Shown piece by piece: positions 10,445-27,306 of a stretch of 27,306 bases of DNA. Source of the DNA: a virus. The position numbers and the translations under genes were made by a program. Where the stretch lies: positions 1-27,306 of the IMG/VR virus record IMGVR_UViG_3300044716_000738; one strand, written 5' to 3'. The notes under the pieces were generated by a model. The model saw only the letters and a list, made by a program, of their open reading frames with translations, searched no databases and was not told where the DNA came from. The number at the start of each line of letters is the position of its first letter. Positions within the stretch are counted from its first letter, which is position 1.

Positions 10445-13261
10445 ATGGCAAATTCAAACAAAGTTTTCGTTTCTCCAGGTGTGTATACTTCAGAGAAAGA
10501 TTTAACATTCGTGGCACAGAGCGTGGGGGTAACAACACTAGGTTTAGTGGGCGAAACATTAAAAGGCCCAGCATTCGAACCTGTTTTAGTTGGTTCCTTC
10601 GACGAATTTAGAACTTATTTCGGTACAACATCACCTGCAAAAGATGGTAACGACAATCCAAAATATGAGTTACCTTATGTAGCAAAATCGTATTTACAAG
10701 AATCAAACCAATTATTCGTTACAAGAATATTGGGATTAACGGGATATAAACCAAACAAATCTTATGGTGTTAAAACCTTAGGAGGTATGTCTGTTGGTGA
10801 TATTCAAACAGGAACCACAACAGGTACAACCGTTGTAACTGCTAGCGGAATCACCGGTTCAACATTCTATGCTGAACTTTCAACAAAAACATCTGTTGAT
10901 GGTAATACTATCACAGAATATATCTTAGACAATTATAGTGGAAACACATCTGGTGATACAGGTGAGTGGTTCACAATCGGTATCGTTCCTGATAGCGCAA
11001 CAAGTGCGTTAACTGGAACAGAATTAAGTTCACCGATTGGTGGTTATAATAATAAAGAATGGTACAATACGTTCTCAAACTTTACTGATAAAGTATATTC
11101 ATATCTTTTTGTATACAATCATGGAATAAATGCGTTCGATGTAACTAGATACCAATACACTGCTGAATTAGTAAACGATGATAGAATTGTTTGTCTAATG
11201 AGATCAAGAGGTTCTTATGATGGTAATACTTTAATACATAGAGTTACCGGAACAACAGACGTTACAATTTCAAGTTCAGATATCACAACAGACCCATTAG
11301 CGGAATTTACAGTTAGCGTTGATGATATTAGTGGTGTAACTAGAACATTTACATGTAGCATGGACACAACTTCAACAAAATACGTAACAAAAGTATTAGG
11401 TGTTGATGTTTTTGATAAAGAGAAAATTGAAAACCCAATTTATGTTCACGAAACATATCCAAATTTAATTAAAAACTTGTTCCAACAAGGTTTAATTAGA
11501 GGTTTAAAGACAAGTGTTGAAACAATTCTTGAAGGAACTGATTTTGTAAACGAATGGGATACTCCTGGTTCTGCCATGGTAGTTTCAGAAGTAAGAGGTG
11601 GTAGAGTATTTGATTTATTCAGTTTCTTAACTATATCTGATGGTAACGCGGCAAACTTTGAGGTTAAAGTTTCAATTATAAACATAAATTTAGAAACAGG
11701 TGAATTCGATTTACTTGTTAGAGATTTTAACGATACTGATGATAATGTAGTTGCTCTTGAGAAATTTTCAAGATGTTCAATGAATCCAGACGCGGCAGGT
11801 TTCATCGGTAGAAAAATAGGTACTTCTGATGGTGAATACGAATTAAGAAGCAAGTATATCATGCTTGTTCTTGCTGATGGTTTCCCAACAGACGCTGTTC
11901 CTGCTGGTTTCAAAGGTTGTATAACAAAAGAAATGATCGGTGGAATGCCTTTCAAAACAAAATACTATACTGCTGGTGAAACTATATCATACAACGCAGA
12001 CGGCTCTCCAAACACATCTAATGGTGATAAAGTTAGAAAAGTGTCGTTAGGTATGTCAACACAATCACATGTTGTATATGATAAAGATATTCTTAAATTT
12101 AAAGGTGTATCTGCTTCTCAAGAAATCAAAGGTTTCCACATGTCATTAAACGCTGCTTCGATAGTTGATACTAATGGCGATGCGATTTATGAGACAACAA
12201 ATTATGATCTTGAAGGACAAACCGGCACCGATAACCCATTGACCGCGATCGCGTATCGTAAATTTACAATGCCTGTATTTGGTGGTTTTGATGGATGGGA
12301 CATTTATAGAAATGTAAGAACTTATAGTGATGCTTATATTTTTGGTAAGACAACTTATGTTGCAAATCACGCAACAAATGGTGGTGTATTTAGTGATTCT
12401 GTAGGTAACTCAGATTACTACGCTTACTTACAAGGTATTGAAACATACGCTAATCCAGAAGCGGTAGACATCAACTTATTTTCTACTCCTGGTATTGATT
12501 GGTTTAATCACGGATCATTAGTTGCTCAGGCAATTGACATGGTTGAAACAGACAGAGCGGATTCACTTTACATTATTAATGCTCCAAACTTACCTACATC
12601 AGAAGAAATTGTTGATGAAATAGACGCTGCGTCAATTGATTCAAACTATTCTGCAACTTACTGGCCTTGGATTCAAGTGAGAGACGTTGATAACGCAACA
12701 CAAATCTATCTTCCACCAACAGGTGAGGTTGTAAAGAACATTGCATTAACAGATAATGTTTCTTATCCTTGGTTCGCAGTTGCGGGTTATTCAAGAGGGT
12801 TGGTTAATTCAATCAAAGCGTTTAAGAAATTAACACTTGACGAAAGAGATGATTTATACAAGAATAGAATTAACCCTATTGCAACATTCTCTGATACTGG
12901 TACAATTATTTGGGGTAACAAAACTCTTCAAGTTAGAGAATCAGCGTTGGATAGAATAAACGTAAGAAGATTATTATTAAGAGCAAGAAAACTTATTTCT
13001 GCTGTCGCAGTAAGATTGTTATTTGAACAAAATGATGATCAAGTAAGACAAGATTTCTTGAATTTAGTAAACCCAATTTTAAGTAGCATTAAGAAAGAAA
13101 GAGGTCTTTATGATTTCCGTGTAACGGTTTCTAACGATCCTGAAGATATTGATGCAAACACATTAAGAGGTAAGATTTATGTTAAACCAACAAGATCATT
13201 AGAATTTATTGATGTTGAGTTTATTATAACACCTACTGGGGCTTCATTTGATAATATCTAA
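10445..13261 (+). CDS. contractile tail sheath protein (T4 gp18-like)
   Basis: The 938-aa protein shows the sheath hallmarks: N-terminal FVSPGVYTSEKD, followed by GLVGETLKGPAFEPVLVGS and FRTYFG, then PYVAKSYLQESNQLFVTRILG; and a C-terminal domain from about residue 800 with LYKNRINPIATF, GTIIWGNKTLQ, DRINVRRLLLRARKLI, FEQNDDQVRQDF and a terminal LRGKIYVKPTRSLEFIDVEFIIT strand set. The N- and C-terminal parts form the conserved handshake core that contracts around the tube. It is much longer than T4 gp18 (659 aa), and the extra length lies in the middle (about 120-800). That part is Thr/Ser/Gly-rich, beta-rich, and probably forms surface-exposed domains. The ATG at 10445 has an A/T-rich leader with no Shine-Dalgarno. 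A strong terminator follows. Confidence 0.95.
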   Translation: MANSNKVFVSPGVYTSEKDLTFVAQSVGVTTLGLVGETLKGPAFEPVLVGSFDEFRTYFGTTSPAKDGNDNPKYELPYVAKSYLQESNQLFVTRILGLTGYKPNKSYGVKTLGGMSVGDIQTGTTTGTTVVTASGITGSTFYAELSTKTSVDGNTITEYILDNYSGNTSGDTGEWFTIGIVPDSATSALTGTELSSPIGGYNNKEWYNTFSNFTDKVYSYLFVYNHGINAFDVTRYQYTAELVNDDRIVCLMRSRGSYDGNTLIHRVTGTTDVTISSSDITTDPLAEFTVSVDDISGVTRTFTCSMDTTSTKYVTKVLGVDVFDKEKIENPIYVHETYPNLIKNLFQQGLIRGLKTSVETILEGTDFVNEWDTPGSAMVVSEVRGGRVFDLFSFLTISDGNAANFEVKVSIININLETGEFDLLVRDFNDTDDNVVALEKFSRCSMNPDAAGFIGRKIGTSDGEYELRSKYIMLVLADGFPTDAVPAGFKGCITKEMIGGMPFKTKYYTAGETISYNADGSPNTSNGDKVRKVSLGMSTQSHVVYDKDILKFKGVSASQEIKGFHMSLNAASIVDTNGDAIYETTNYDLEGQTGTDNPLTAIAYRKFTMPVFGGFDGWDIYRNVRTYSDAYIFGKTTYVANHATNGGVFSDSVGNSDYYAYLQGIETYANPEAVDINLFSTPGIDWFNHGSLVAQAIDMVETDRADSLYIINAPNLPTSEEIVDEIDAASIDSNYSATYWPWIQVRDVDNATQIYLPPTGEVVKNIALTDNVSYPWFAVAGYSRGLVNSIKAFKKLTLDERDDLYKNRINPIATFSDTGTIIWGNKTLQVRESALDRINVRRLLLRARKLISAVAVRLLFEQNDDQVRQDFLNLVNPILSSIKKERGLYDFRVTVSNDPEDIDANTLRGKIYVKPTRSLEFIDVEFIITPTGASFDNI

Positions 13262-13522: not shown

Positions 13523-14011
13523 ATGGCTGATTTACTAATGAAAATGCCGGTTCCATATGAGCCAAAAAGGAAGAATCGATTCATTTTAAGATTTGAATCG
13601 TCTTTAGGTATTAATGAGTGGTACGTGACTTCCACGGCTCGCCCAAGCGCTAAAATTAACTCTGTAGCAATTCCGTTTTTAAACACATCGACATACGTTG
13701 CTGGTAGATTTGAGTGGGATGAGATCAAAGTAACCTTTAAAGATCCTATCGGACCTTCTGCTTCTCAAGCACTTATGGAGTGGTTTCGTCTTCATGCTGA
13801 ATCTGTTACAGGTCGTATGGGATATGCGGCTGGTTACAAAAAAGACGTTTATTTAGAAATGCTAGATCCAACTGGTGTGGTTGTGGAAAAATGGTTATTA
13901 GAATCATGTTTCTTAACAAACCTTAACTTTGGTGATTTGGCTTACGATCAAGACGCTTTAGCAAATATCGACGCATCTTTAAGAATGGATAGATGCATAC
14001 TTATTTACTAA
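13523..14011 (+). CDS. tail tube protein (T4 gp19-like)
   Basis: The 162-aa length is almost that of T4 gp19 (163 aa). The N-terminus MADLLMKMPVPYEPKRKNRFILRF opens a beta strand. Then follow WYVTSTARPSAKINSVAIPFLNTSTYVAGRFEWDEIKVTF, DPIGPSASQALMEWFRLH, YKKDVYLEMLDPTGVVVEKW and a C-terminal ILIY strand. These are the standard elements of the T4 tube family: a two-sheet barrel, an alpha helix (about 88-98) and the YKK.V.LE.LDP turn. Monomers stack as hexameric rings inside the sheath, around the tape measure. It is set apart by a terminator on each side and its own upstream TATTTAT box, which fits very high expression. The leader is A-rich without Shine-Dalgarno. Confidence 0.95.
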   Translation: MADLLMKMPVPYEPKRKNRFILRFESSLGINEWYVTSTARPSAKINSVAIPFLNTSTYVAGRFEWDEIKVTFKDPIGPSASQALMEWFRLHAESVTGRMGYAAGYKKDVYLEMLDPTGVVVEKWLLESCFLTNLNFGDLAYDQDALANIDASLRMDRCILIY

Positions 14012-14132: not shown

Positions 14133-14882
14133 ATGGAAAATTTTAAAATAGACCCAAATATTTCTTATGACGTGGTGACTTTACCATCTCAGGGAATCTA
14201 CTATCAAAATAAGAAAAAAACACTAAGAGTAGCATATCTAACCGCAGCAGATGAGAATATCCTGTCGGCACCAAATCTTTTACAGACAGACACTGTTATT
14301 GAAGAATTACTAAAAAGAAAAATATTAGATAAAGACATCGATGTTGACGACCTAGTTGTGGAAGATAGACAAGCAATATTAATATTTTTAAGAAATACCG
14401 CGTTTGGAACTGATTTTAAACTAAAGGTTACTGATCCTAAAACAAACGAGGTTTTTGATGCTGACGTAGATCTTTCGGTTTTAAAAATGAAAGATTTTGA
14501 CTTAAAACCTGACGAAAACGGAGAATATGCATATTACATGGATATGTCTAAGGTTAATGTTACGTTTAAGTTTTTAAACAACCAACAAGAGAAAGAATTG
14601 GATAAAGTAAAATCATCAGCAACAGGTAATATTGTAGCACCAACAATGACAAAGAGATTAGAGATGATGATCCAATCTATTAATGGTAATAGAGATAAAT
14701 TACAGATATATGAATTTATTCAAAACTTACCGATAAAGGATTCTCAAAACTTTAAAAAATTTGTTGCAGAAAATAAACCAGGCCTAGATTTAATTATCGA
14801 TATTACAACCCCATCAGGAGAAGTTGTCCCAATTTTTGTGGACTTTGGGGTAGAGTTTTTTCGCCCTTTCTACGGATTATAG
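14133..14882 (+). CDS. gp26-like (T4_baseplate family) protein, tail-chaperone slot
   Basis: The 249-aa protein has the N-terminal pattern of the T4_baseplate (gp26) family: YDVVTLPSQGIYY (about 12-24), a basic strand KKKTLRVAYLTAADENIL, a helix with IEELLKRKI, then DVDDLVVEDRQAILIFLRNTAFGTDF (about 70-95). T4 gp26 is a baseplate hub component. Here the gene lies between tube and tape measure, where most tailed phages encode a tail assembly chaperone, so it may guard the tape measure during assembly. It ends in TAG at 14880-14882. An overlapping +1 frame is open from 14854, and TTT TTT C at 14856-14862 is a candidate slip site (see findings). The leader has no clear Shine-Dalgarno. Confidence 0.72.
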   Translation: MENFKIDPNISYDVVTLPSQGIYYQNKKKTLRVAYLTAADENILSAPNLLQTDTVIEELLKRKILDKDIDVDDLVVEDRQAILIFLRNTAFGTDFKLKVTDPKTNEVFDADVDLSVLKMKDFDLKPDENGEYAYYMDMSKVNVTFKFLNNQQEKELDKVKSSATGNIVAPTMTKRLEMMIQSINGNRDKLQIYEFIQNLPIKDSQNFKKFVAENKPGLDLIIDITTPSGEVVPIFVDFGVEFFRPFYGL

Positions 14883-14889
14883 GAAAAAT

Positions 14890-15009
14890 ATGATGACAGA
14901 AATGTTATTTCTAATTAATCGGAAATTTACATATACCGACTTCCTAACTATGCCCACACATGAACGCAGATATATTATTAACTTTTTAATTGAGAACGAA
15001 AAAAGTTAA
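14890..15009 (+). CDS. 39-aa ORF, possible frameshift extension of the gp26-like gene
   Basis: An ATG at 14890, eight bases after the gp26-like stop, opens a 39-codon frame ending in TAA at 15007-15009. It lies in the +1 frame relative to the gp26-like gene. Upstream of the ATG this frame is open back to 14854, inside the gp26-like gene. The peptide is compact and helical: MMTEMLFLINRKF, then TYTDFLTMPTHERRY and IINFLIENE. This resembles the short C-terminal extensions of tail assembly chaperone fusions. It is either an independent small protein or the frameshift tail of the upstream gene. It is followed by the tape measure gene. Confidence 0.5.
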   Translation: MMTEMLFLINRKFTYTDFLTMPTHERRYIINFLIENEKS

Positions 15010-15037: not shown

Positions 15038-16996
15038 ATGCCCCAAGATTTTGGTACAATACCTACAGGTGGATTAAGTGACGCACAGAAACGCCTATTG
15101 CAGAGCGCTCTTAATGGTAACGCAACCCTTGCTGCTAAAGACCTTGAAAAAGAAATTAACAAAGGTTTAAAAGCCGCGGCTGCGAGTGCTGCAGCAACTG
15201 GTACTGGTAGTACTAGTGCTACTGGTGGTACTGTAATATCTACCACAATAGGTAAGGCCCTAGGGGGTTTATATGATAGATATGAAGGTGAGGCGTTTAG
15301 ATTAGGTAAGCAAAGAATCGCCCCAATTATTCAAGAGTTAACACAAGGATTAACCGATTTTAGTGCATCAGCAATTTTAACAAGTTTAAAGAAAGAATTA
15401 AAAGCGAGTGTTGGTCAAATGATGGTTGACATGAATGAAATTGATGATAAGATCATCAAAATGATTAACCAGAACTCGATGTTTGTTGGTGATGTCGCCA
15501 GACACATGAGAGAAGAAATGCGCGACGTTTTACCCCTGGCTCAACAAATGGGTGTAAGTGTTCAAGATTTTTTAAGAGGTGCTGAATCTATGTTCCAAGC
15601 ACAAGGTAGAATGATTACCTATAGTCAGGAAACATTGGGTAATGCCGTAACAGTTGGAAAAGCGTTTACCGAAAGTTCAACTGCTATTATGGAAAATGTT
15701 GAAAATTTTAGAAATGTTGGCATTGGTTTAGCAGATGCGGCTGACGACATTGAAAAAATAGGTAAAAGAAGTGCTTCTCTTGGTTTAAACGCTAAAGATA
15801 CCACTAAAACCGTAATGGCTAATTTAGAAAAATTAAATCAGTATGGATTTAAAAATGGTATAGAAGGTTTAAGTAGAATGGTTCAACAAGCGCAGTCACT
15901 TAAAATTAGTATGGAAACAACATTCAAAATTGCAGAAAAGGTTTTTGACCCAGAAGGCGCACTTGAGTTAACGGCAAAATTACAAGTATTAGGTGGTGCA
16001 TTTGGTGACTTAGGTGACCCAATGAGAGCATTATATGATTCAACCAATAACGTTGAAGGATTACAAGACGCATTCATAAAAGCAAGCGCATCTTTAGCGG
16101 TTTATAATGAAGGACAGAAAAGATTTGAGGTTACAGGTATTAATTTAAGAAGAGCAAAAGCAATGGCTGATGCATATGGTGTTAGTTTGAATGAAGTAAC
16201 AAACGCAGCAACAAAAGGAGCCGCTAAGTTACAAGCAATGGGTGAATTAGATATGTTTAGTAATTTTAGCCCAGAACAAAAGGAATTTGTTTCAAACATG
16301 TCACAGATGAAAGGTGGTAAGATTGGTATAGAGGTACCTAAATCTATGATGGAAGAACTTGGACTTAAAGAATCCTTTGTTGAACTAGGTAATTTAACAG
16401 GTACTCAAATCGAAAAAATCCAAAAAATGCAAGAAAGCGTTGTAAGCATGAGTACAGAAGAAATTGCAATGGAACAAATGAATACCACAACAAAAATGTT
16501 AAACACTATTACCGCAATTCAATTGGGGTTACAAAATTACGTATTTAAAAATACAGGACCAGCAAGAACCCTTGTTCAAGGGGCTGAAAAAACATTGCGA
16601 TCATATGGTCCTGGTAGATCTAATGACCTTATGGACATACGTAAGAGTGCTGGGGAGTTTTTACAAGAAATGATGGGTCCAGATGGTTTTGGTATTGATT
16701 TTGGTGATATTCAAAATAAAAGTAAGGAGTTAATGAAAAAAATAAAGGCCTCAGGAATAAGTGGTCTTGATTTATCTAATTTGTTTGGTGCAACATCTAA
16801 AACCGAACTACCAAACCCTGCTTTAAATGTTAGAAACAATACCGCAAGGGTTGATGTTTATCATCATGCTTCCGATAATGGCGTTGCTGGGTTTGTTAAA
16901 GCAATGAGAGAGAATCCAGCCGTAGCAAAAGATGTAAACGACGCATTTGCTAAAATCAGTTACGGATCACAACAAGAGGATATTGTTACAACATAA
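15038..16996 (+). CDS. tail tape measure protein
   Basis: This 652-aa protein follows the chaperone-slot genes, the usual tape measure position. It is largely helical, with long amphipathic stretches (about 75-140, 155-330 and 430-500) and an Ala/Gly/Ser/Thr low-complexity linker at about 46-66. Patterns such as QVLGGAFGDLGDPMRALYDS, NVEGLQDAFIKASASLAVYN and RRAKAMADAYGVSLNEV occur in tape measure proteins of large myoviruses. T4 gp29, the equivalent, has 590 aa. At about 1.5 angstrom of tail per residue (established rule for tape measures), 652 residues would give a tail near 100 nm. There is no transmembrane segment or peptidoglycan hydrolase motif. It is followed by a weak AT-rich hairpin (16995-17013). 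Confidence 0.8.
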   Translation: MPQDFGTIPTGGLSDAQKRLLQSALNGNATLAAKDLEKEINKGLKAAAASAAATGTGSTSATGGTVISTTIGKALGGLYDRYEGEAFRLGKQRIAPIIQELTQGLTDFSASAILTSLKKELKASVGQMMVDMNEIDDKIIKMINQNSMFVGDVARHMREEMRDVLPLAQQMGVSVQDFLRGAESMFQAQGRMITYSQETLGNAVTVGKAFTESSTAIMENVENFRNVGIGLADAADDIEKIGKRSASLGLNAKDTTKTVMANLEKLNQYGFKNGIEGLSRMVQQAQSLKISMETTFKIAEKVFDPEGALELTAKLQVLGGAFGDLGDPMRALYDSTNNVEGLQDAFIKASASLAVYNEGQKRFEVTGINLRRAKAMADAYGVSLNEVTNAATKGAAKLQAMGELDMFSNFSPEQKEFVSNMSQMKGGKIGIEVPKSMMEELGLKESFVELGNLTGTQIEKIQKMQESVVSMSTEEIAMEQMNTTTKMLNTITAIQLGLQNYVFKNTGPARTLVQGAEKTLRSYGPGRSNDLMDIRKSAGEFLQEMMGPDGFGIDFGDIQNKSKELMKKIKASGISGLDLSNLFGATSKTELPNPALNVRNNTARVDVYHHASDNGVAGFVKAMRENPAVAKDVNDAFAKISYGSQQEDIVTT

Positions 16997-17047: not shown

Positions 17048-20000
17048 ATGCCAAGTAATTTAGATTTTGATTCTAGTAGAGACGGTAGGGGTATACCTAA
17101 CGCAAAAAAGGGATTTAGGGACTTTTTATTGTCAAAAACATTAAATGTACCTAATGGTCCACAAACAGCGACATCCTCGAACTATAGCGTTAATACCCTA
17201 CAAGAATACGCAAATAAAGATCTTGGCGATGTAACTAGTAGTGATAAATTCACATTAGTTAATAGTTTAATAAAAACACAAACAAGTAACACGTTTAAAC
17301 CAGAGGAATTCTTCGTCAAAGAAAATTTAGAAGTATTACCAAGGAGAGCGAATCTTAGTTTATATCCATATTTTCAACCGCTAGATAATAGAACATTAGT
17401 TGGCGTGTTAGCAACATCGAATTACGATTCAGAATCAGAACTAGCAAAATTTGCATCGAATTATATAAAAGTTGAGAAAGACGGACCCGTTTTTGCTAGA
17501 ATTACACAAAACTTATATTCTGCAACAGTTGGTAGAGTTAAATTAATTGACGCGTTAAATGGTAATACAAATACTGCAATTAATTTAATAACTGGTAGAG
17601 AACCTTTAATTGAAAAAAATTATAAAATTACTGTTGCGAAAAGTTTACCAGGTAAAGCAATTGATTTTGTACAAACAGTTGCAGGTGTGGAATTTCCATG
17701 GTCAGAAATACCTGGAGATTATTTAAGTAATCCCGCAAATCCTATTAATTATAGACCAGAAGCAAGAACAGGTGCAGGTAGATTATTGCAAGATATTACG
17801 GGCGTTTTAGGTTCATTGATTGGAATAGAAAGAAGACCCAAAAAATCTAGAAAACCATCTGATCTATTAATTGAATATTCTAGTCAAGGTCAATTACAAA
17901 CATTGTATGATAATTTATCATTCTCAAAATATAAACCAGATTACACTTCAACAGCAAGATCACAACAATCTTCAAAATTATTTAACTTTCCTAACCAAAT
18001 AGCAAAAGGAGTTAAAAGATTACTCGGCATTGAAGCACCGAACGGGAACGCATATATTGGAGATGATAGAGGTGATGATGTTATATTTACAACCAGTGAT
18101 GGTAATGGTAGAAAAACTAAAAGTAGTTATTACTTAAGTTTACTTTTTGATCCAGTACAAACAAAATTATTTCATAATGAAAAAAATATAAGTGAAGGAG
18201 GTCAAATAGGTGGACCATTAGCATGGGTTAGTAAAAATTCAAACAAAAAAATATTAGGTGTTCATAATGTTGAATGGAAACAAGAAAAATCTAGATTTGA
18301 AGAAAGTGTGTCAACATCAAAAAAATTTAGAGACGATTCTATTTTAGGTGAAACACAAAGAATATTAGATAGTATGCCTAGCGATGGGGGTGAAGCAAAA
18401 ACACACGTCGCGAATGTTATTGATCAAACAAGTAGAGTTTTTAGAGAAGGTGAACAAATGTTATCCAGGGGTTCAGCAATTAAATATATTGATAAATTCT
18501 CAGGTGAAGAAAGCGGTGTTGAATATTGTCGTGTTTGGACAAAAGATCGTTCATACTTGAATATGTCTGACACAATGAAGAGAACTGGATTAATTAGAAA
18601 ATTCAATGACAGTGTTTTAGATAAACCGTGGAATTTAAATATTGCCCCGATGTCTAACGGACAAAAAGGTGGTAAAGATGCTTTTGCTGGGTCAACAAAT
18701 ATTATTAATGGGCAAGCAAAAAAATATATGTTCTCACTTGAAAACTTAGCATGGAAAACATCAAACAAAAAAGGTTTTCAAGTTCAAGATTTACCATTTT
18801 GTGAAAGAGGACCAAATGGTGGTAGGGTAATGTGGTTTCCACCATACGATCTTAAATTTTCTGAAAACAATAGTGCACAATGGGAAACAACTAAATTTAT
18901 CGGTAGAACAGAACCAATTTATACATATCAAAACGCAGAAAGAAGTGGATCAGTATCATTTAAAGTTATTGTTGACCATCCTAGTGTTTTAAATCTTTTA
19001 GTTAAAAAATCATTCGAAGGAATGTCGGATGCTGAAGCCGATAATTATATAAATGCTTTTTTTGCTGGATGCGAACAGTTAGATTTTTATGATTTAATTA
19101 GAAGATATAGAGAATTGGATTCTAGTGAAATTGAAATAATAATGGACTACCTATCATATTATCGAGACGGTAAAACGTCAGATGATTTTGCTAGATTAAA
19201 ATTTACTAGAACGGCAGGAGAAACTGTAACATCAAACCCAAACAATTTAACACAAAATGGTGACCCTCAGTTAGGTGGCAGTAATGTTGGACCAGGTAAC
19301 CCAACATCAACAGATAAATCATTTGAAGGTGATTTATATTTTGCGAATGACCACCCATTCCCACAAAATACTCAATACGCAACAAACGACTACTCTCAAC
19401 AATATTCATATTACGTTGGAAAGAAAACAGAATATGTTAACTACTTAATATCAGGTATTGCAAGTATTACGTCTTTACCGGACTCAAACAAGAAAAAAGC
19501 GGATAGAAAAGCATTATTCGGAAAAGAAACAATTACTGCTTCTGAAACGGGAACCACAATGAATAAACTTAACGATGGTTTTACTAAATTAGATACAAAC
19601 TACGCTAAGTTAACAGGTGTTACCCAAACAATTAAAACAGATGTTGAAGCAAAAAAAGCATCTGAAGTAAAATTAGAAATCCAATCGTCAACATCATTTG
19701 TTGCTGACGAAAATTATAATATTTTATTATCGTTTAGAAGAGCACATAGTGTTGCACAGTATGTTTTAAAAACAATATCTAAAAATAATACTGCACCAAC
19801 AATAAAATGGAAAACAACACAAGCACAAGCAATAGCACAAAAACAAGTTAAGGAAGAATTAACATTTTCATATCAAAGTTTAGGTTATCCTGAAGATGTT
19901 AAAGGCAATGTTGTAATAAGTTTTACTATGTTAGGGGAAAACGCAACAGCAAGTGATTGTGGTAATGGGTTAGATTGTCACGGAGTTACTTTTTATGACA

Positions 20001-21898
20001 CAAAAGGTTTAAAATATGCCGCACCGATAACTTTCTTGTGTAGACATACAAGTGTTAAGTTAAATTATAAAACAAACGAACCAGCAGATGGCACTAGTAA
20101 TGTTACTCCGGGAGGTGATACGAACTTAGATCCTAATATTGATCCTACGTTAGAAAAAGTATATCCAGATACTATTGCTATCGATTATGAAAAAACAACC
20201 GTACCAAAAAAGCCACCTTTAGATGCGTTAAAATTTATAATAATGAAGATTCTTTCAGAATGTCATTATTTTAAAATATTAGAAGATTCTTCTCCTTTGG
20301 CTTATAATTCATTAAGAGAAAAATTAAGATATTTTCATCCAGCGTTCCATTCAATGACACCAGAAGGATTAAACTCAAGATTAACATTTTTACAACAGTG
20401 TTTAAGACCAGGAGACACAATACCAATTAAAGGTATTGCCGACGCAAACAATTTAGATGCCAGAAATACTACATTTGGACCACCACCAATTTGTATTATC
20501 AGAATTGGTGACTTTTTCCATTCTAAAATTATTATAAGAGATATTAATATATCTTACGAAGAGGGTCTTTTAGATTTAAATCCAGAAGGTATTGGTATAC
20601 AACCAATGATTGCAACAGTACAAATGCAAGTATCTTTTATTGGTGGACAAGGTTTAAAAGAACCAGTTGCTAAATTACAAAACGCATTAAGTTTCAATTT
20701 CTATGGCAACACGGAAGTTTACGATCATAGATCAACAGCGACAGAAGATAGAACTGAGTTTAACATATCAGAATTAGAAAAAATATTAAAGGCACCAGAA
20801 AATGGCGCTAAAAAACCAGAAGTGAGTCAATCGCCAGAAAAACCAATTGATGGTAAGTATATTGGTACAACAGCACAAAGTGGAAGTACATTAAACATTG
20901 ATTACGATACTTACTTAGTTAAAAAAGATACCAATATTAATGATTTAACAAAAGCGTACTTTGATTCAACCAAAACAAGATATAATGAATTATTGGTTAA
21001 ATATGGTGAATTAATCCTACCGGTATTTTTCTCACCTTTATACAGAACTAAAAATAAAGTTGATGTTTATGATTCAATGACAACAACAACGCAAATAGAA
21101 TTAATTGGTTTATATGATAAAAACAAAACCTTTACCAAGTTGGTTAAAGATTTTAATGATGCATTAAAACGTAAGGTAAATTCATTTACAAGTATTAGTA
21201 CATTTTTTGGTTTTGATTCTTTCTTGGCTGATTATAAATTAAAAAGGTCAGATGATTTATTAAAACCATATATATTATCAAGAATAGATCAATTTATCAC
21301 AGACCTAGAAGGAGAAAAATTAGAAGGTATTGAAAGTGGTAGAAATAAAATAATTGACGCCATAGATAGATTAAATTTTGTTTTAAGTACAAATGGAAAA
21401 GATGGTAAATTAAATAAAAACGATGCTATTGGTTTACAATTAAACAGTTTTGTGCCTGCAGATTTTTATGATAAATATAAAAAGACAATTGAATTTATTA
21501 AAAAAGAAAATCCAGAATCATTTACAAACGGGCTAGACACCACGATAAATTTTGCTCAACTATCTAACCTTATGTTTACTGATAGTGTTTTCACAGATTT
21601 AATGGGTACGATCTTAAAAGATAAAGTTACTGAAATTGAAAAAATATACGTTGATTCATCAGATGAAAAATTCTTTACAAAACAAATTATACATAAGATC
21701 ACCAAAAGAATAGATAAAATACTTATCAAAACAAAAGAAAAGAAAATAAGGTATTCTATTCCGAATTTAAAAAATACTAAATCAGTTGTTTTTGGTACTG
21801 TTGATTACACGTTAAGCGGCGCTGAAAAAACAAACCTTAAAAAGATACATGATTCTGGAGATAAAAGTGACAACACTAAATTAAATTATTATCGATGA
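17048..21898 (+). CDS. giant baseplate protein with OmpA-like module, 1616 aa
   Basis: Several regions can be seen. The first ~500 residues are mixed beta/loop. A segment at about 566-650 contains FIGRTEPIYTYQNAERSGSV and VDHPSVLNLL, like a beta-barrel baseplate or tube-initiator domain. At about 760-1000 lies a degenerate OmpA-like module: LYFANDHPFP, then VKLEIQSST (about 873-882), LSFRRAHSVAQYVL (894-907) and later TFLCRH. At about 1120-1230 comes PPPICIIRIGDFFHSKIII and NPEGIGIQPMIATVQMQVSF, a signature of large phage baseplate proteins. The C-terminal ~350 residues are Lys-rich and helical. A Cys/His cluster (C971, C977, H978, C998, H1000) follows the OmpA part. It ends in TGA within ATGA, coupling it to the next gene. 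Position after the tape measure supports a baseplate role; the exact T4 counterpart is unclear. Confidence 0.7.
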   Translation: MPSNLDFDSSRDGRGIPNAKKGFRDFLLSKTLNVPNGPQTATSSNYSVNTLQEYANKDLGDVTSSDKFTLVNSLIKTQTSNTFKPEEFFVKENLEVLPRRANLSLYPYFQPLDNRTLVGVLATSNYDSESELAKFASNYIKVEKDGPVFARITQNLYSATVGRVKLIDALNGNTNTAINLITGREPLIEKNYKITVAKSLPGKAIDFVQTVAGVEFPWSEIPGDYLSNPANPINYRPEARTGAGRLLQDITGVLGSLIGIERRPKKSRKPSDLLIEYSSQGQLQTLYDNLSFSKYKPDYTSTARSQQSSKLFNFPNQIAKGVKRLLGIEAPNGNAYIGDDRGDDVIFTTSDGNGRKTKSSYYLSLLFDPVQTKLFHNEKNISEGGQIGGPLAWVSKNSNKKILGVHNVEWKQEKSRFEESVSTSKKFRDDSILGETQRILDSMPSDGGEAKTHVANVIDQTSRVFREGEQMLSRGSAIKYIDKFSGEESGVEYCRVWTKDRSYLNMSDTMKRTGLIRKFNDSVLDKPWNLNIAPMSNGQKGGKDAFAGSTNIINGQAKKYMFSLENLAWKTSNKKGFQVQDLPFCERGPNGGRVMWFPPYDLKFSENNSAQWETTKFIGRTEPIYTYQNAERSGSVSFKVIVDHPSVLNLLVKKSFEGMSDAEADNYINAFFAGCEQLDFYDLIRRYRELDSSEIEIIMDYLSYYRDGKTSDDFARLKFTRTAGETVTSNPNNLTQNGDPQLGGSNVGPGNPTSTDKSFEGDLYFANDHPFPQNTQYATNDYSQQYSYYVGKKTEYVNYLISGIASITSLPDSNKKKADRKALFGKETITASETGTTMNKLNDGFTKLDTNYAKLTGVTQTIKTDVEAKKASEVKLEIQSSTSFVADENYNILLSFRRAHSVAQYVLKTISKNNTAPTIKWKTTQAQAIAQKQVKEELTFSYQSLGYPEDVKGNVVISFTMLGENATASDCGNGLDCHGVTFYDTKGLKYAAPITFLCRHTSVKLNYKTNEPADGTSNVTPGGDTNLDPNIDPTLEKVYPDTIAIDYEKTTVPKKPPLDALKFIIMKILSECHYFKILEDSSPLAYNSLREKLRYFHPAFHSMTPEGLNSRLTFLQQCLRPGDTIPIKGIADANNLDARNTTFGPPPICIIRIGDFFHSKIIIRDINISYEEGLLDLNPEGIGIQPMIATVQMQVSFIGGQGLKEPVAKLQNALSFNFYGNTEVYDHRSTATEDRTEFNISELEKILKAPENGAKKPEVSQSPEKPIDGKYIGTTAQSGSTLNIDYDTYLVKKDTNINDLTKAYFDSTKTRYNELLVKYGELILPVFFSPLYRTKNKVDVYDSMTTTTQIELIGLYDKNKTFTKLVKDFNDALKRKVNSFTSISTFFGFDSFLADYKLKRSDDLLKPYILSRIDQFITDLEGEKLEGIESGRNKIIDAIDRLNFVLSTNGKDGKLNKNDAIGLQLNSFVPADFYDKYKKTIEFIKKENPESFTNGLDTTINFAQLSNLMFTDSVFTDLMGTILKDKVTEIEKIYVDSSDEKFFTKQIIHKITKRIDKILIKTKEKKIRYSIPNLKNTKSVVFGTVDYTLSGAEKTNLKKIHDSGDKSDNTKLNYYR

Positions 21899-22215
21899 AC
21901 TCATATTTCAATAGATATCAGTTTTTTATTGATGACGAGGAGCATAAGATTGTTCCCGGTGTCGAGATACCACTAAAAGGTACCGACAAGTTTATTCAAT
22001 ACAAAAAAGGAAAAGACAGGTTAGATAAAATATCACAAGACAATTATAATACGCCATTATTCGGTTGGGTAATCTTATTAGCAAACCCAAGTTTAGGTTC
22101 AATCGAATTTGAAATACCCGATAATTCAACACTAAGAATACCGTTTCCTCTTATTAACACTTTACAAGATTATAAAAGAGCGGTAGAATTGTATAAACTA
22201 TATTATGGCGAATAA
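21895..22215 (+). CDS. LysM-like (gp53 / tail protein X-like) baseplate protein, 106 aa
   Basis: The ATG overlaps the preceding TGA (ATGA), so it is probably translationally coupled to the 1616-aa gene. After an N-terminal NRYQFFI strand and VPGVEIPLKGTDKFIQYKKG, the core reads KDRLDKISQDNYNTPLFGWVILLANPSL, followed by a turn and STLRIPFPL. That is the LysM-like order found in P2 tail protein X and the gp53-type baseplate wedge component: 'D.LD.Is...Y....l.w.I..AN', then a G/S-x-L-R-I-P strand. Such proteins link tube, hub and wedges at the baseplate. It is short, with a Tyr-rich C-terminus. Its last 11 bases overlap the start of the next gene. Confidence 0.6.
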   Translation: MNSYFNRYQFFIDDEEHKIVPGVEIPLKGTDKFIQYKKGKDRLDKISQDNYNTPLFGWVILLANPSLGSIEFEIPDNSTLRIPFPLINTLQDYKRAVELYKLYYGE

Positions 22216-25200
22216 CAAGATAAGCACTAACGAAAATATACACGTTAGGGTTGACCAACAAAATTTAATATTCATCGATCCAGGTACTGTTGTTGACAAT
22301 GACGGACAACTTTCATCTAGAATGATTGAACATGAAAATCTTGTAATGTATGTAAATCTTGAAGCGGACTTAATACCAAGGAGTGTTTTATTTTCAGAAG
22401 GAGATAAAAATACGTTAGTTTCTATTGCTGGAGGTAGTTTAAATTTTCTTAGAAATAATAGTGGTAATGAATATGATACAACCTGGACCGAGACCTTTGT
22501 TGGTTCAGATGCGAAAGATAAGGACGGTAACATATTAAGTGGTAACACGTTAAATCATGATCCTAGTGGTCAATCATTTGGTTTTGAAAGTATTAATATT
22601 GTAACTAAAGGAGCAAATGCGATACCTGAAGTAGCGATCAATTTCATTGATGTTAGAGGTAAAACACTTTTTGAATCCCCCGATAATTCCCCATACCAAG
22701 CATTTTTCCATTTCCCTTGGCCAATATTTTATTTAACAGTAAAAGGATATTATGGTAAAGCGATTAGATATCGCCTACATATGGTTGATTTTAAAAGTTC
22801 ATTTAATGCTAATACAGGTAACTTTGAAATCACAACAAGATTTGTTGGCTCAACGTTTGCATATTTAAATGATATATTATTACAAAATATGTTAAGTGCA
22901 CCATACATGTACATGGTGGAGCATTCGGATAATTACAAAGAAAATACTAAAACGGGTTATGTAGAAAAAAAGATATCTAAAACAACAAAAGGTTATTCTA
23001 TTTTAAAATCCGTATATGATTCTTATAAACAAAAGAAATTAATACCCCAAGATTTTCCGGTAAAAACCCTTAAAGATCTAATAATGACCGCTGAATCAGC
23101 GGAAAGATTATTAGAGTCAAAGATATTTGAAAACAAAGTAGATTTTAGAGTGTTAGGTTCCGTTAAGGCGTATGAAAGTATGTTAACATCATTTGAACGA
23201 GGAATATCTGCTTGGGGGTCTAGTTACTTAAACCTTAATAAGCCAGAAGAATTAAATAATGATGGTGTTGCTTATTATCCATTAGCAAAGGCCGCTAGTG
23301 AAGAAGATAAAAAAGGGGGGTTTCCTAGTTTAAGTAGCATCACAGGAAACACCGGAACAGCATTACAAAAAATAATTAATGATTATAAAACCCAAGCATA
23401 TAACAATGAAGCGTTTGGTGAAAAATTAAATAAGAATTTAATTAAGGATAAAGATATTAAATTAAATAAAATATCATTCGACAAGGTTTCAGACGTCATG
23501 GTGTATTATTCGCCAGAAGGTGGAAAAATAAATATTGCTTTTGATAAATTAAAAGATGATATCGATTCAATACAAGATGAATTCGTAAAACAAAGAAACG
23601 AATTAGAAACCACGTTAGAAACAAAAATGAATGAAATCATTCAGAATGATAGTGATATTGGGATAGGGTTTAAACCAACAATTAGAAATATATTTGCAGT
23701 TATCTTAGCGAATGCTGACACTTACATTAGATTAATGAAAGATGTACATTTTAGAGCGATACAAAATGCTAAAGAAAGACAGAGTTTATTAACTAAACAA
23801 GGTGTTGTAGATAATAAATCGGAAGGATTGTACCCTTGGCCCCAAATTAAGAAACAAATTAATGATAACACATCAACAATCTTGTATCCAGGAGATAAAC
23901 AAATCGCTAAATTAATAAAAGCAAACGACCCAAATTTATGGCCCGAAATTGAGTTTATTGAACTTTATGAAGCGGTCGCAACAAAGAGAATCGACCCATT
24001 AACCCAAAATGAAATTGATATTAGTAAAGTTAATTATATTTTTGCTAATGATCCAGAATCCAGAACAACAAATAATTTATCAACAATATTAAATTTACTT
24101 GGTACAACACCATATACAAATAAAGCATTAAACAGTTTATTATTTGAAATGAGTGAAAGAGTTTTTTACACAACATCTTTTGATTCGTTTTCAACAAAAG
24201 CAATACAAAATTTAGCAGCGAAAGAATTTGAAACGTTATCTAGTGCGTTACAAAATGATTCTGATATTAAACAGGGATTAAAAGGCCCGATTTATAATGA
24301 GTACACCCAATCCGGAAAGATATCATATGATAATATATTATACAATTATTCACCATTTGAAAGATACCCATATTACGCCGATAAATTACCAACAATAGAT
24401 TACATAAAAGAAGTTGTTGATAGAGATTTCTCAATTGAAGAATATTCTAAGTTAACTAAAACAACATTCGGTAGTGAAGGGTACGATGACTTAAATAAAA
24501 ATTTAGCAGAATACGATGTTGCTGATTATAGGTTATCAATATATCCGTTTAACACTAAAACATATTTAAAATACCTAGGTAGACCAAACGCTGATAAATT
24601 AACCAGAAATGATTTTAATTTTAAAAATATTTTAAGTTTAAATGAAAACAGTTCTTTTATTAGCACAAAACCAGATCCTGGTTTATGGATTAAAGAAGGT
24701 GTTTCGGACACATTTTTTTTACAAAAAATAGGATTATCTGGAACTAGTAGAAATATTATTAATACATCATATTTTCATAAACAAATATATAATGATTTTT
24801 TTAAAGGAGGAGATGTTGGCAGATATGCTGGGTCTGCTTATTTATTTTTAAATTCATTACCGTTTAAGGATTTAGATGATAGTGTTGTTTTTAATGGTGA
24901 CACTAAAATATTAATGTCATCTCTTTTTAGGGAAATTGGTTCATCACATTTTATACCGTATCACTTAATTTTAAAGTGGGGTTCAATATACCATAGATAT
25001 AAAAAATACCTATTAAACGGTGTTGATATTATATCTGGATTAACAACTCCAATAAACACTTCTTTATTTTACGATAATAGTTCTGGAACAACATTTACTT
25101 ATGGTGGATATACAACACAACCAAGTGGTTCAACTTTCTATACATCATATGATGATGGCGGAGGAATGCCAACACCATCTGGCCACACTGTTGGTGTTTA

Positions 25201-27306
25201 TCCATTATATCAAAACATTTATTATCAGGTAGTTAATGGACATGTATTTTTTAATCCAGGTGTAATATCTGGAAGTGAAAAAACTGGTACACTAACCTTG
25301 AATAGTGCAATAATGGCATCAAGTTTTTCCGGCGCAACGAGCGATGGTATTTTAAAAATATTAAAACTAGAACCAAACGTTGATCACGGATTTACGATGA
25401 GTTTTATTGTTGATAATAGTAAACTAGTTAGTTCAGATACAAAATACACTGTTTTACCTTCTTTTGGAAATTATCAATCAGATAGAATTGGGGAAATAAT
25501 CTCCAATTATAAAAAAATTGAGCAAGATTCTTTTAAAGTTTCTTGGGCACTAGAAGAAAATCAATTCTTCCCAGTATATAGTGGAAATACACTACCAACA
25601 TATGCTGAAAATTTTAAATCAGTGTCTGGTTCTACACCAGGTTCTTTTGTTGGTACATATTCTATTGAAAAAACAAAAAGAAAAGTAATTGATTTGATTG
25701 CAACATTTAACCCACAAATTCTGGATGAGTTTGAAACAATGTTTTTAGAATTCTCAACATTAAAATTAGACACAGATAGTGTTTTAACAACAAACAGTTA
25801 TAATTATAATTCTTTTCAAGATTTACTAAAAGATATTTCAACAGTAAATAAATCCGATGTTACTTCTTTAGATATTAAGTCAATAGGTAGAGTTCAATAC
25901 AATAACCTTAAAAGTATCACTAAAAAAATATTAGACAATAAGAATCTTGTTAAGGTGACAATTGGTAACCCTAAACAATTAGATAACTATACATTATACG
26001 GTGTCGCTGGATTAAATAAAAATTATTCAGACGGGGAATTTAATTCCACACAAATAAGTGGAAATAGTTTAAATTTAATTAAATTGTATATCGGAGAGGA
26101 TATGGATTTACATTATTTAGATTATTTCACAACAAATAATATTGAATTAAATTCAGATAACATTTATCTACACAGAGAAATGGCTAGAATTTATGCGGGA
26201 TATGTTACAAATGAATTATACTCTAATAGTGGATTTACAGCATCAAACGCGTCTTTTAAACAATATTTAAAAACAAATATAATCACACCACAAGAACAAA
26301 GATATCAGGTGTTTTTTACTAATTTGATGAATAAGGTTTCTAAATTTTCTCTAGATACCCCAACAAAAATGACAGTATTTGGTGGTTACAATATGGATAA
26401 AACTGTTAAAGTTGAGACCTATAATTTCTTTAAAGAATTTAATGATAAATGGGTTGCTGGAAACTCAATAGGACAAAGAAATCTATTAGAGGAATTTTTA
26501 TTTATTGATAGAGCAAATAAAGATATTGGTAACGACCTTTATCTTAGTTTAGATAGATTAAAAAATCTTGCTGAACCTAAAAACGCAAAAGCAAGTTTAT
26601 ATAGTGTAATTTCTATGTTAATTCAAGGTGATAACATTGACTTTAGACCATTACCGGCGTACGTTAATTTTTATGGAACTAATTTTACTGATAAAAAAAG
26701 AATAACGCCGTCAAGCACGGTTGCTAGAAACTTATTTGGAACATTTTTAGAAGTCGACTATCAGGAAGCATCCCCTAAAATGATATTACAATATATTGGA
26801 CCATCATCAAAATATCTTAAAATGTCAGATGTTGATTCAAAAGGTAAGTTATCCAAATATAAAAATGATGGGGCAGATATTAGAAACACAAACAAGAATC
26901 CTTTGTTATTAACTCAAGAAGTTTTTACAAATACTGATTTTAGTAAATCAAACAGGGTTGTTGCGTTCGAAGTTAACTTTGGAGATCAAGCGCAAAATAT
27001 TTTTAAAAGTATATCATTAGACCAAAGTTCTAAGACACCAACAAGTGCAACCTTTGCTGCATATGAAAACTTAGGTAGATCGGCAACCGGTTCCAATGTT
27101 TACCAGGTAGATGTTAATCTATTTGATGTTTACAGAACTTACGCATATTCTTGTGAAGTAGTTGCAATGGGTAATGTAATGATTCAACCAACAATGTATT
27201 TTTATTTAAATAATATACCAATGTTTGAAGGTTCTTATTTAATCACCGAGGTTACACATACAATTAAACCAAATTATATTGAAACTAAATTTAAGGGCGG
27301 TAGGAT
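22205..27306 (+). CDS. giant baseplate/hub protein, at least 1700 aa, 3' partial
   Basis: From ATG 22205 the frame stays open to the right edge: 1700 codons with no stop, and truncated there. Translation by eye through the whole stretch shows coherent protein. Near residues 120-230 come IPEVAINFIDVRGKTLFESPD, FHFPWPIFYLTVKGYYGKAIRY, and SSFNANTGNFEITTRFVGSTFAYLNDIL, an ordered beta domain of large virion proteins. Around 24940-25010 is IPYHLILKWGSIYHRYKKYL. The last ~120 visible residues contain VVAFEVNFGDQAQNIFKSISL, MYFYLNNIPMFEGSYLITEVTHTIKP and ETKFKGGR, the pattern of hub/late-control D-like domains ('F.G.YlIt.V.H.I...T.F.G.R'). It follows the LysM-like gene with an 11-base overlap. A baseplate or hub role is likely; the T4 counterpart is uncertain. 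Confidence 0.75.
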   Translation, partial: MANNKISTNENIHVRVDQQNLIFIDPGTVVDNDGQLSSRMIEHENLVMYVNLEADLIPRSVLFSEGDKNTLVSIAGGSLNFLRNNSGNEYDTTWTETFVGSDAKDKDGNILSGNTLNHDPSGQSFGFESINIVTKGANAIPEVAINFIDVRGKTLFESPDNSPYQAFFHFPWPIFYLTVKGYYGKAIRYRLHMVDFKSSFNANTGNFEITTRFVGSTFAYLNDILLQNMLSAPYMYMVEHSDNYKENTKTGYVEKKISKTTKGYSILKSVYDSYKQKKLIPQDFPVKTLKDLIMTAESAERLLESKIFENKVDFRVLGSVKAYESMLTSFERGISAWGSSYLNLNKPEELNNDGVAYYPLAKAASEEDKKGGFPSLSSITGNTGTALQKIINDYKTQAYNNEAFGEKLNKNLIKDKDIKLNKISFDKVSDVMVYYSPEGGKINIAFDKLKDDIDSIQDEFVKQRNELETTLETKMNEIIQNDSDIGIGFKPTIRNIFAVILANADTYIRLMKDVHFRAIQNAKERQSLLTKQGVVDNKSEGLYPWPQIKKQINDNTSTILYPGDKQIAKLIKANDPNLWPEIEFIELYEAVATKRIDPLTQNEIDISKVNYIFANDPESRTTNNLSTILNLLGTTPYTNKALNSLLFEMSERVFYTTSFDSFSTKAIQNLAAKEFETLSSALQNDSDIKQGLKGPIYNEYTQSGKISYDNILYNYSPFERYPYYADKLPTIDYIKEVVDRDFSIEEYSKLTKTTFGSEGYDDLNKNLAEYDVADYRLSIYPFNTKTYLKYLGRPNADKLTRNDFNFKNILSLNENSSFISTKPDPGLWIKEGVSDTFFLQKIGLSGTSRNIINTSYFHKQIYNDFFKGGDVGRYAGSAYLFLNSLPFKDLDDSVVFNGDTKILMSSLFREIGSSHFIPYHLILKWGSIYHRYKKYLLNGVDIISGLTTPINTSLFYDNSSGTTFTYGGYTTQPSGSTFYTSYDDGGGMPTPSGHTVGVYPLYQNIYYQVVNGHVFFNPGVISGSEKTGTLTLNSAIMASSFSGATSDGILKILKLEPNVDHGFTMSFIVDNSKLVSSDTKYTVLPSFGNYQSDRIGEIISNYKKIEQDSFKVSWALEENQFFPVYSGNTLPTYAENFKSVSGSTPGSFVGTYSIEKTKRKVIDLIATFNPQILDEFETMFLEFSTLKLDTDSVLTTNSYNYNSFQDLLKDISTVNKSDVTSLDIKSIGRVQYNNLKSITKKILDNKNLVKVTIGNPKQLDNYTLYGVAGLNKNYSDGEFNSTQISGNSLNLIKLYIGEDMDLHYLDYFTTNNIELNSDNIYLHREMARIYAGYVTNELYSNSGFTASNASFKQYLKTNIITPQEQRYQVFFTNLMNKVSKFSLDTPTKMTVFGGYNMDKTVKVETYNFFKEFNDKWVAGNSIGQRNLLEEFLFIDRANKDIGNDLYLSLDRLKNLAEPKNAKASLYSVISMLIQGDNIDFRPLPAYVNFYGTNFTDKKRITPSSTVARNLFGTFLEVDYQEASPKMILQYIGPSSKYLKMSDVDSKGKLSKYKNDGADIRNTNKNPLLLTQEVFTNTDFSKSNRVVAFEVNFGDQAQNIFKSISLDQSSKTPTSATFAAYENLGRSATGSNVYQVDVNLFDVYRTYAYSCEVVAMGNVMIQPTMYFYLNNIPMFEGSYLITEVTHTIKPNYIETKFKGGR

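Follow-up and report, generated by a model that had tools for sequence, protein, structure and literature searches.

The gene that occupies the tail-chaperone slot in the viral DNA analysed here very probably undergoes programmed +1 frameshifting, by which a long form of the chaperone (291 aa) would be produced from the start codon of the short form (249 aa). On balance, we also favour a broader reading, in which this is a natural and widespread +1 frameshift driven by a hairpin that refolds behind the ribosome, and in which, within one gene family, the direction of the shift and the side of the RNA structure have switched together during evolution at an unchanged pair of Phe codons. The window, that is, the whole stretch of 27,306 nucleotides analysed (IMG/VR virus record IMGVR_UViG_3300044716_000738), contains the features listed in Table 1.

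Table 1. Features of the chaperone locus in the window, with the evidence for each.
Feature	Position	Strand	Evidence
Tail tube protein (gp19-like), directly upstream of the chaperone gene	13523..14011	+	PHROG_4542, E=5.3e-24
Zero-frame ORF, 249 aa: short tail assembly chaperone (TAC-N), T4_baseplate family	14133..14882	+	PF12322, PHROG_150
Putative frameshift fusion (TAC-NC), 291 aa	14133..15009	+	Translation; AlphaFold2
Conserved upstream hairpin: outer stem, 5'-side bulge, inner stem	14808..14851	+	Synonymous-null folding, covariation
Hairpin 5' arm, outer stem (ACCCCA)	14808..14813	+	ACC/GCC codon bias
Hairpin 3' arm, outer stem (TGGGGT), 4 nt before the first Phe codon	14846..14851	+	GGG bias, pairing
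+1-frame ORF with chaperone C-terminal domain (TAC-C, 14863-15006)	14854..15009	+	pN/pS, hhalign
Candidate slip site TTT.TTT.C, Phe-tRNA re-pairing from UUU to UUU or UUC	14856..14862	+	Conserved codons
Zero-frame stop TAG, end of the short form	14880..14882	+	Sequence
Likely tape measure protein, directly downstream of the chaperone gene	15038..16996	+	Position only

Near its end, the zero frame reads ...GTA GAG TTT TTT CGC CCT TTC TAC GGA TTA TAG. The +1 frame carries a TAG stop at 14851-14853; from 14854 it stays open up to 15006, and it closes with TAA at 15007-15009; a 39-aa ORF (14890-15009) lies in this frame. Slippage on either the first or the second TTT would give an identical 291-aa protein (...EFFALSTDYRKN...). 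The extension is thus in the +1 frame, and the canonical -1 arrangement is not matched. An initial annotation, made from the sequence of the window, had described a gp26-like gene and the 39-aa ORF in different frames, with the +1 frame open across the last zero-frame codons, a TTTTTTC heptamer, and a fusion of about 291 residues. The sequence bears out the frames and their overlap, the position given for the heptamer was exact, and the fusion is indeed 291 residues long. The assignment of the gene to the tail-chaperone slot was also right, both by position, with the tube gene upstream and the tape-measure position downstream, and by family. The upstream hairpin, the -1 sister clade and the published role of gp26/gp51-type proteins as the tail assembly chaperones of T4, all described below, escaped the initial annotation.

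The zero-frame protein matched PF12322 (E=1.7e-9, 38.1 bits compared to a curated cut-off of 24.5) and PHROG_150 (E=2.4e-11). Both gp26 and gp51 of phage T4 match PF12322; gp26 matches PHROG_150 only to position 235 of 282, while the match of gp51 extends to 280. Adding the C-terminus to the protein of the window lengthened its match to PHROG_150 and did not raise the score. Comparison of the C-terminal part with gp51 gave a weak hhalign result (58%, E 1e-4), with a likeness visible by eye, and an HMM built from the +1 domains did not pick out T4 gp51. Strong sequence proof that the gp51 C-terminus is the same domain was therefore not obtained, and the hhalign result is suggestive. A second copy of the chaperone gene was not found in the 27-kb record, which is itself a fragment and contained one match; the strategy of T4, where the short and long forms come from two complete genes, was not seen in this record.

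Gene order (sheath, tube, chaperone, next ORF) is conserved in the window's own clade of 54 loci (clade A). A tube homologue was present upstream of the chaperone in 51 of the 54 loci, and a homologue of the next ORF of the window was present downstream, again in 51/54. This next ORF had no family match of its own; in Flavobacterium phage immuto (MW353175-7), an isolated relative, a tape measure protein is annotated at the corresponding position. Position and family therefore point to the short and long proteins being a pair of tail assembly chaperones. Elsewhere in the window, the tail sheath protein (10445-13261) is 938 aa long and matches the 496-position PHROG_23 profile across its whole length, which suggests that this long sheath protein contains large inserted domains. 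Two further ORFs, at 17048-21898 (1616 aa) and 22205-27304 (at least 1700 aa, cut off by the window edge), showed no PHROG match at an E value of 0.001.

The fusion was modelled with AlphaFold2, using an input of 48 rows comprising the window and IMG/VR locus proteins. The mean pLDDT of the model was 89.7, with most of the N-terminal part above 90, and helices were predicted in the C-terminal part at residues 247-262, 267-271 and 275-290 with pLDDT values of 55-75. Prediction from the single sequence was uninformative (pLDDT 33). A search of the PDB with the fusion model gave no convincing match, and matches were seen only to predicted viral baseplate-hub proteins.

The zero-frame protein and six aligned homologues served as queries to collect relatives from IMG/VR contigs and phage genomes. 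In 87 of 93 related loci, the +1 frame continued open for 100 nt or more beyond the zero-frame stop, which argues that the overlap in the window is not due to chance. The exceptions include one locus at a contig edge (L027) and four with the C-terminal domain in the -1 frame (L013, L015, L017 and L018). In one locus (L095:3106-3561), the C-terminal domain (E 4e-15) is found in the -1 frame, far downstream of the zero-frame stop and after a possible ATG start, and this may represent a split-gene arrangement. Phages of Flavobacterium, Microcystis, Rhodothermus, Streptococcus, Listeria and Bacillus were among the relatives, and the +1 extensions of the Streptococcus, Listeria and Bacillus phages are related to that of the window (hhalign 97%, E 4.7e-11). 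Three phages with the +1 arrangement, Streptococcus GXN1, Listeria LIS04 and Bacillus SP-15 (L012, L014 and L016), are annotated only as encoding a baseplate protein or hub at this locus. Across 19 loci of the window's own clade, the region past the zero-frame stop had a pN/pS of 0.43 and no stops when read in the +1 frame, compared to a pN/pS of 1.30 and 3.0 stops per sequence when the same region was read in frame 0, indicating that the +1 ORF is under protein-coding selection.

Codons were tallied at the 82 distinct +1 loci. All 82 have a Phe-Phe (80) or Phe-Leu (2) pair near the end of the zero frame, and the distance from the first Phe codon to the zero-frame stop is 15-24 nt in every case. 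The first codon is TTT in 77 loci and TTC in 5, and the second is TTT in 80, with single occurrences of CTT and CTA, whereas TTT accounts for 75% of the Phe codons elsewhere in these genes. The base following the pair is C in 56 loci, T in 25 and A in one. The same pattern holds among cluster representatives that share less than 60% identity. The variants are informative with respect to the codon on which slippage could occur. At TTT.CTA.T (L010), Phe-tRNA would be able to move on the first codon only, while at TTC.TTT.[C/T], present in five loci (L012, L040, L041, L077 and L081), it would be able to move on the second only; at TTT.TTT.A (L014), only the first codon would fit slippage on UUU followed by a pyrimidine. 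One further variant is TTT.CTT.T (L008). Slippage of Phe-tRNA on UUU followed by a pyrimidine could thus account for every locus. The slip site has no classical slow A-site codon or stop codon at which the ribosome would pause; unlike in prfB, the zero-frame codon after the Phe pair is a sense codon.

A strong codon bias was also seen just upstream of the slip site. At the position 9 nt before the first Phe codon, 65 of 76 Gly codons are GGG, against a background of 9%, and in the window's 54-locus clade 51 of 54 Gly codons are, against about 9-10%. Folding placed this GGGG in the 3' arm of a hairpin, which explains the bias, with a 5' arm of ACCCC or GCCCC about 38 nt earlier; the codon in the 5' arm is ACC or GCC in 50 of the 54 clade loci, compared to 10-13% of Thr and Ala codons in the background. 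The 3'-most paired base of the hairpin is mostly found 3-6 nt before the first Phe codon. We evaluated folding against a synonymous null, in which codons were swapped for synonyms at clade frequencies and the region -51..0 was folded. This region folded beyond the null in the 54 loci (mean z -2.7, with 85% of loci at p<=0.05), and a repeat of the test gave a z of -2.65 with 78% of loci at p<=0.05, while six control windows gave z values of 0.1 to -0.6. Fifteen representatives sharing less than 60% identity gave a Stouffer value of -9.5 for the upstream region. In the outer stem, the share of paired cells was 99.4% over 26 loci and 97.2% over 18 loci, and the inner stem differed in sequence and register among loci. 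Covariation in the inner stem of the 26-locus sister subclade exceeded 500/500 shuffles and was also better than in slid registers. In the window's own 18-locus subclade the covariation was marginal because the inner stem shifts register, and an inner stem of fixed register fitted this subclade poorly.

The hairpin signal is collective over loci, and that of the window alone would not stand out: its hairpin has an MFE of -14.8 kcal/mol, with a weak dinucleotide-shuffle z of -0.97 and a synonymous z of -1.2 to -2.4 that varies with the window edges. In a more distant +1 group of 28 loci, the hairpin is shorter, often AUCCC-N4-GGGAU, with the 3' arm at the same place. The signal in this group was weaker (z -1.2, with 25-29% of loci at p<=0.05), and 14 representatives gave a Stouffer value of -6.0. 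Little signal was observed for structure downstream of the slip site in +1 clade A (z about -0.7 to -1.0), and a downstream stimulator in this clade was therefore rejected.

The upstream GGGG could also be an internal Shine-Dalgarno-like element, as in prfB, and not the arm of a hairpin. This would concern the stimulator only and is compatible with frameshifting. GGGGU can pair with the anti-Shine-Dalgarno sequence, at a spacing that by our own comparison is roughly prfB-like, and this was our initial reading of the element. It was dropped as the main reading once the complementary arm and the covariation appeared. The distal 5' arm is equally constrained, which a Shine-Dalgarno function leaves unexplained; in loci without GGG, inspection often revealed a different hairpin whose 3' arm occupies this position; and Shine-Dalgarno sequences are absent from the gene starts of the window. 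We therefore consider a Shine-Dalgarno function for the element unlikely. It is likely that the hairpin stimulates +1 slippage.

A second search, started from jumbo-phage members, gave 70 usable loci. This jumbo-type sister clade (PA5oct, RAS14, Atu_ph07 and metagenomic contigs) belongs to the same family and has the same Phe-Phe pair, and its C-terminal domains resemble that of the window (hhalign 96%, E 2.9e-9). It differs from the window's clade in that the extension is in the -1 frame, in 68 of the 70 loci, with T.TTT.TTC as the slip site in most, and in having structure downstream and none upstream. In 62 distinct -1 loci, folding of the upstream region did not exceed background (z -0.46). 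The 60 nt that follow the slip site gave a z of -2.08, with 58% of loci at p<=0.05, in a test where the first bases of the region overlap the end of frame 0 and the randomisation ignores this overlap. The RNA structure therefore appears to change sides together with the direction of the shift. In the PA5oct, RAS14 and Atu_ph07 records, the -1 extension is apparently unannotated (jumbo-type loci L108-L181).

A different origin of the C-terminal product could be envisaged, in which the small ORF of the window is a separate gene, whose translation begins at an ATG of its own (14890) through termination-reinitiation 7 nt past the stop, with no frameshift. Two adjacent ATG codons (14890/14893) do lie directly 3' of the zero-frame stop, and the annotations of Mel-JY01 and immuto contain separate small ORFs. 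Among the 82 distinct relatives, however, 58 have no ATG within the first 24 codons of the +1 frame, and 42 have no ATG, GTG or TTG. One relative with 62% amino acid identity (L005) has kept TTTTTTCG and the +1 peptide but lost the ATG ATG. Moreover, conserved residues of the +1 frame (FFxLSxDYR) precede any start and overlap the end of the zero frame. The loss of starts among relatives largely refutes a separate gene, and we rejected an independent start for the small ORF as very unlikely. Conserved starts together with the absence of a conserved slip site was the pattern that the initial annotation had set against a frameshift, and we found the opposite, with starts lost and slip codons kept. 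Its proposal that relatives be compared for the site, the two frames and the distance was followed, and the Phe pair, both frames and the 15-24 nt from slip site to stop were all conserved. Its central claim, a programmed +1 frameshift, is supported by the conserved frames and slip codons, the lost starts and the coding selection in the +1 frame. Sequence comparison establishes both frames and the slip codons, the lack of a conserved second start, the +1 coding selection and the conservation of the hairpin; the occurrence and efficiency of slippage, its stimulation by the hairpin and the chaperone role are inferred.

The same frame would be reached if the tRNA slipped two bases back on the U run, and -2 re-pairing is possible on U6. 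The variants TTT.CTT.T, TTT.CTA.T and TTC.TTT.[C/T] permit +1 re-pairing on one codon but no cognate -2 re-pairing, so that mismatched pairing would be needed at these loci, and an upstream hairpin opposes backward slippage (PMC6321510). A -2 shift is accordingly disfavoured, and we regard it as highly improbable. Transcriptional slippage on the T run, giving a mixed pool of mRNAs some of which encode the fusion, would draw on the T6-T7 run present in most loci. Two loci lack this run (L008, TTTCTTT; L010, TTTCTAT) and yet retain both frames, and an effect of the RNA on the ribosome accounts for the move of the structure from the upstream to the downstream side with the change of frame; slippage by the polymerase is thus exceedingly unlikely. 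That the hairpin and T run form an intrinsic transcription terminator or attenuator within the gene, as a GC-rich stem followed by T6 might suggest, was rejected as no less implausible, since a scan found no terminator-like site here, a 4-nt spacer separates the stem from the Ts, the hairpin is kept in a relative without the T run (L010), and the -1 clade retains the Ts without the hairpin signal.

For the programmed +1 frameshift, we propose that the stable hairpin just 5' of the slip site would re-form in the wake of the ribosome when the slip codons move into the P site. Its action would resemble that of the internal Shine-Dalgarno duplex of prfB, blocking backward and favouring forward slippage. 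The short and long proteins would serve as chaperones of the tape measure protein while the tail is assembled, as do gpG and gpGT of lambda. In vitro, with 70S ribosomes, a hairpin next to the E site stimulates +1 frameshifting, reaching about 60% of what an internal Shine-Dalgarno sequence achieves, and attenuates -1 frameshifting, whereas downstream structures act oppositely (PMC6321510). The effect varies in yeast and human systems with the stability of the hairpin and its nearness to the slip site (PMC3639245). Because its position is comparable to that of these engineered stimulatory hairpins, the phage hairpin probably acts by analogy as a wheel chock, or as a forward push on the ribosome.

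The main genes of the window have A/T-rich sequence before the start codon and no Shine-Dalgarno motif. Starts of this kind are typical of Bacteroidota hosts, the host of the window itself not being established. It is a speculation that an intramolecular duplex could replace the Shine-Dalgarno duplex in such hosts. Related +1 phages infect hosts of other phyla too.

Frameshifted tail chaperones are well known. The chaperone family described here looks like a natural experiment on what sets the direction of slippage, with one codon pair, two directions, and structure either behind (+1) or ahead (-1). This pattern of sides is what the reporter work with engineered hairpins predicts, and a mechanical model of direction could be tested with natural sequences. 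On this reading, many phage genomes are without a correct annotation for the long form of the chaperone.

Comparison with known systems sets these observations in context. The tail chaperone frameshift of lambda is a -1 shift. With gpG/gpGT of lambda, the window shares overlapping short and short-plus-C-terminal proteins directly 5' of the tape measure position and a slippery-site frameshift, here predicted, near the end of the first ORF; unlike lambda, the shift in the window would be +1, with an upstream hairpin and proteins of the T4_baseplate family. The features of the gpG/gpGT type found here were the slot between the tube and the tape-measure position, an overlapping second ORF without a conserved start, and a conserved slippery site (the lambda-type frameshift is described by Xu, Hendrix and Duda, 2004, as cited in PMC9024508 and PMC10885494). 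T4 gp26 and gp51 share the PF12322 N-terminal domain with the window, but T4 has two genes where the window has one gene and a predicted frameshift. A 2022 study by Vladimirov, Gautam and Davidson reportedly found frameshifting conserved in several T4-like groups, with genes 26 and 51 as the chaperones of T4. The description of PRFect (PMC10885494), where it cites Vladimirov et al. 2022, states that some T4-like phages encode the short and long chaperones as separate genes. Since a frameshifted chaperone in the T4_baseplate family has reportedly been described for T4-like phages, it is not new in kind; what is new is the conserved upstream hairpin and the change in the side of the RNA structure when the shift reverses direction. 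A limited search of the open-access literature found no natural +1 site with an upstream hairpin. The closest parallels are prfB (RF2) and engineered upstream hairpins (PMC6321510, PMC3639245), with which the phage element shares the +1 direction and a duplex right behind the ribosome. Unlike prfB, the duplex in the phages would form within the mRNA and not with 16S rRNA, and the A site contains neither a stop nor a hungry codon; unlike the engineered reporters (PMC6321510, PMC3639245), the hairpin occurs in phage genomes.
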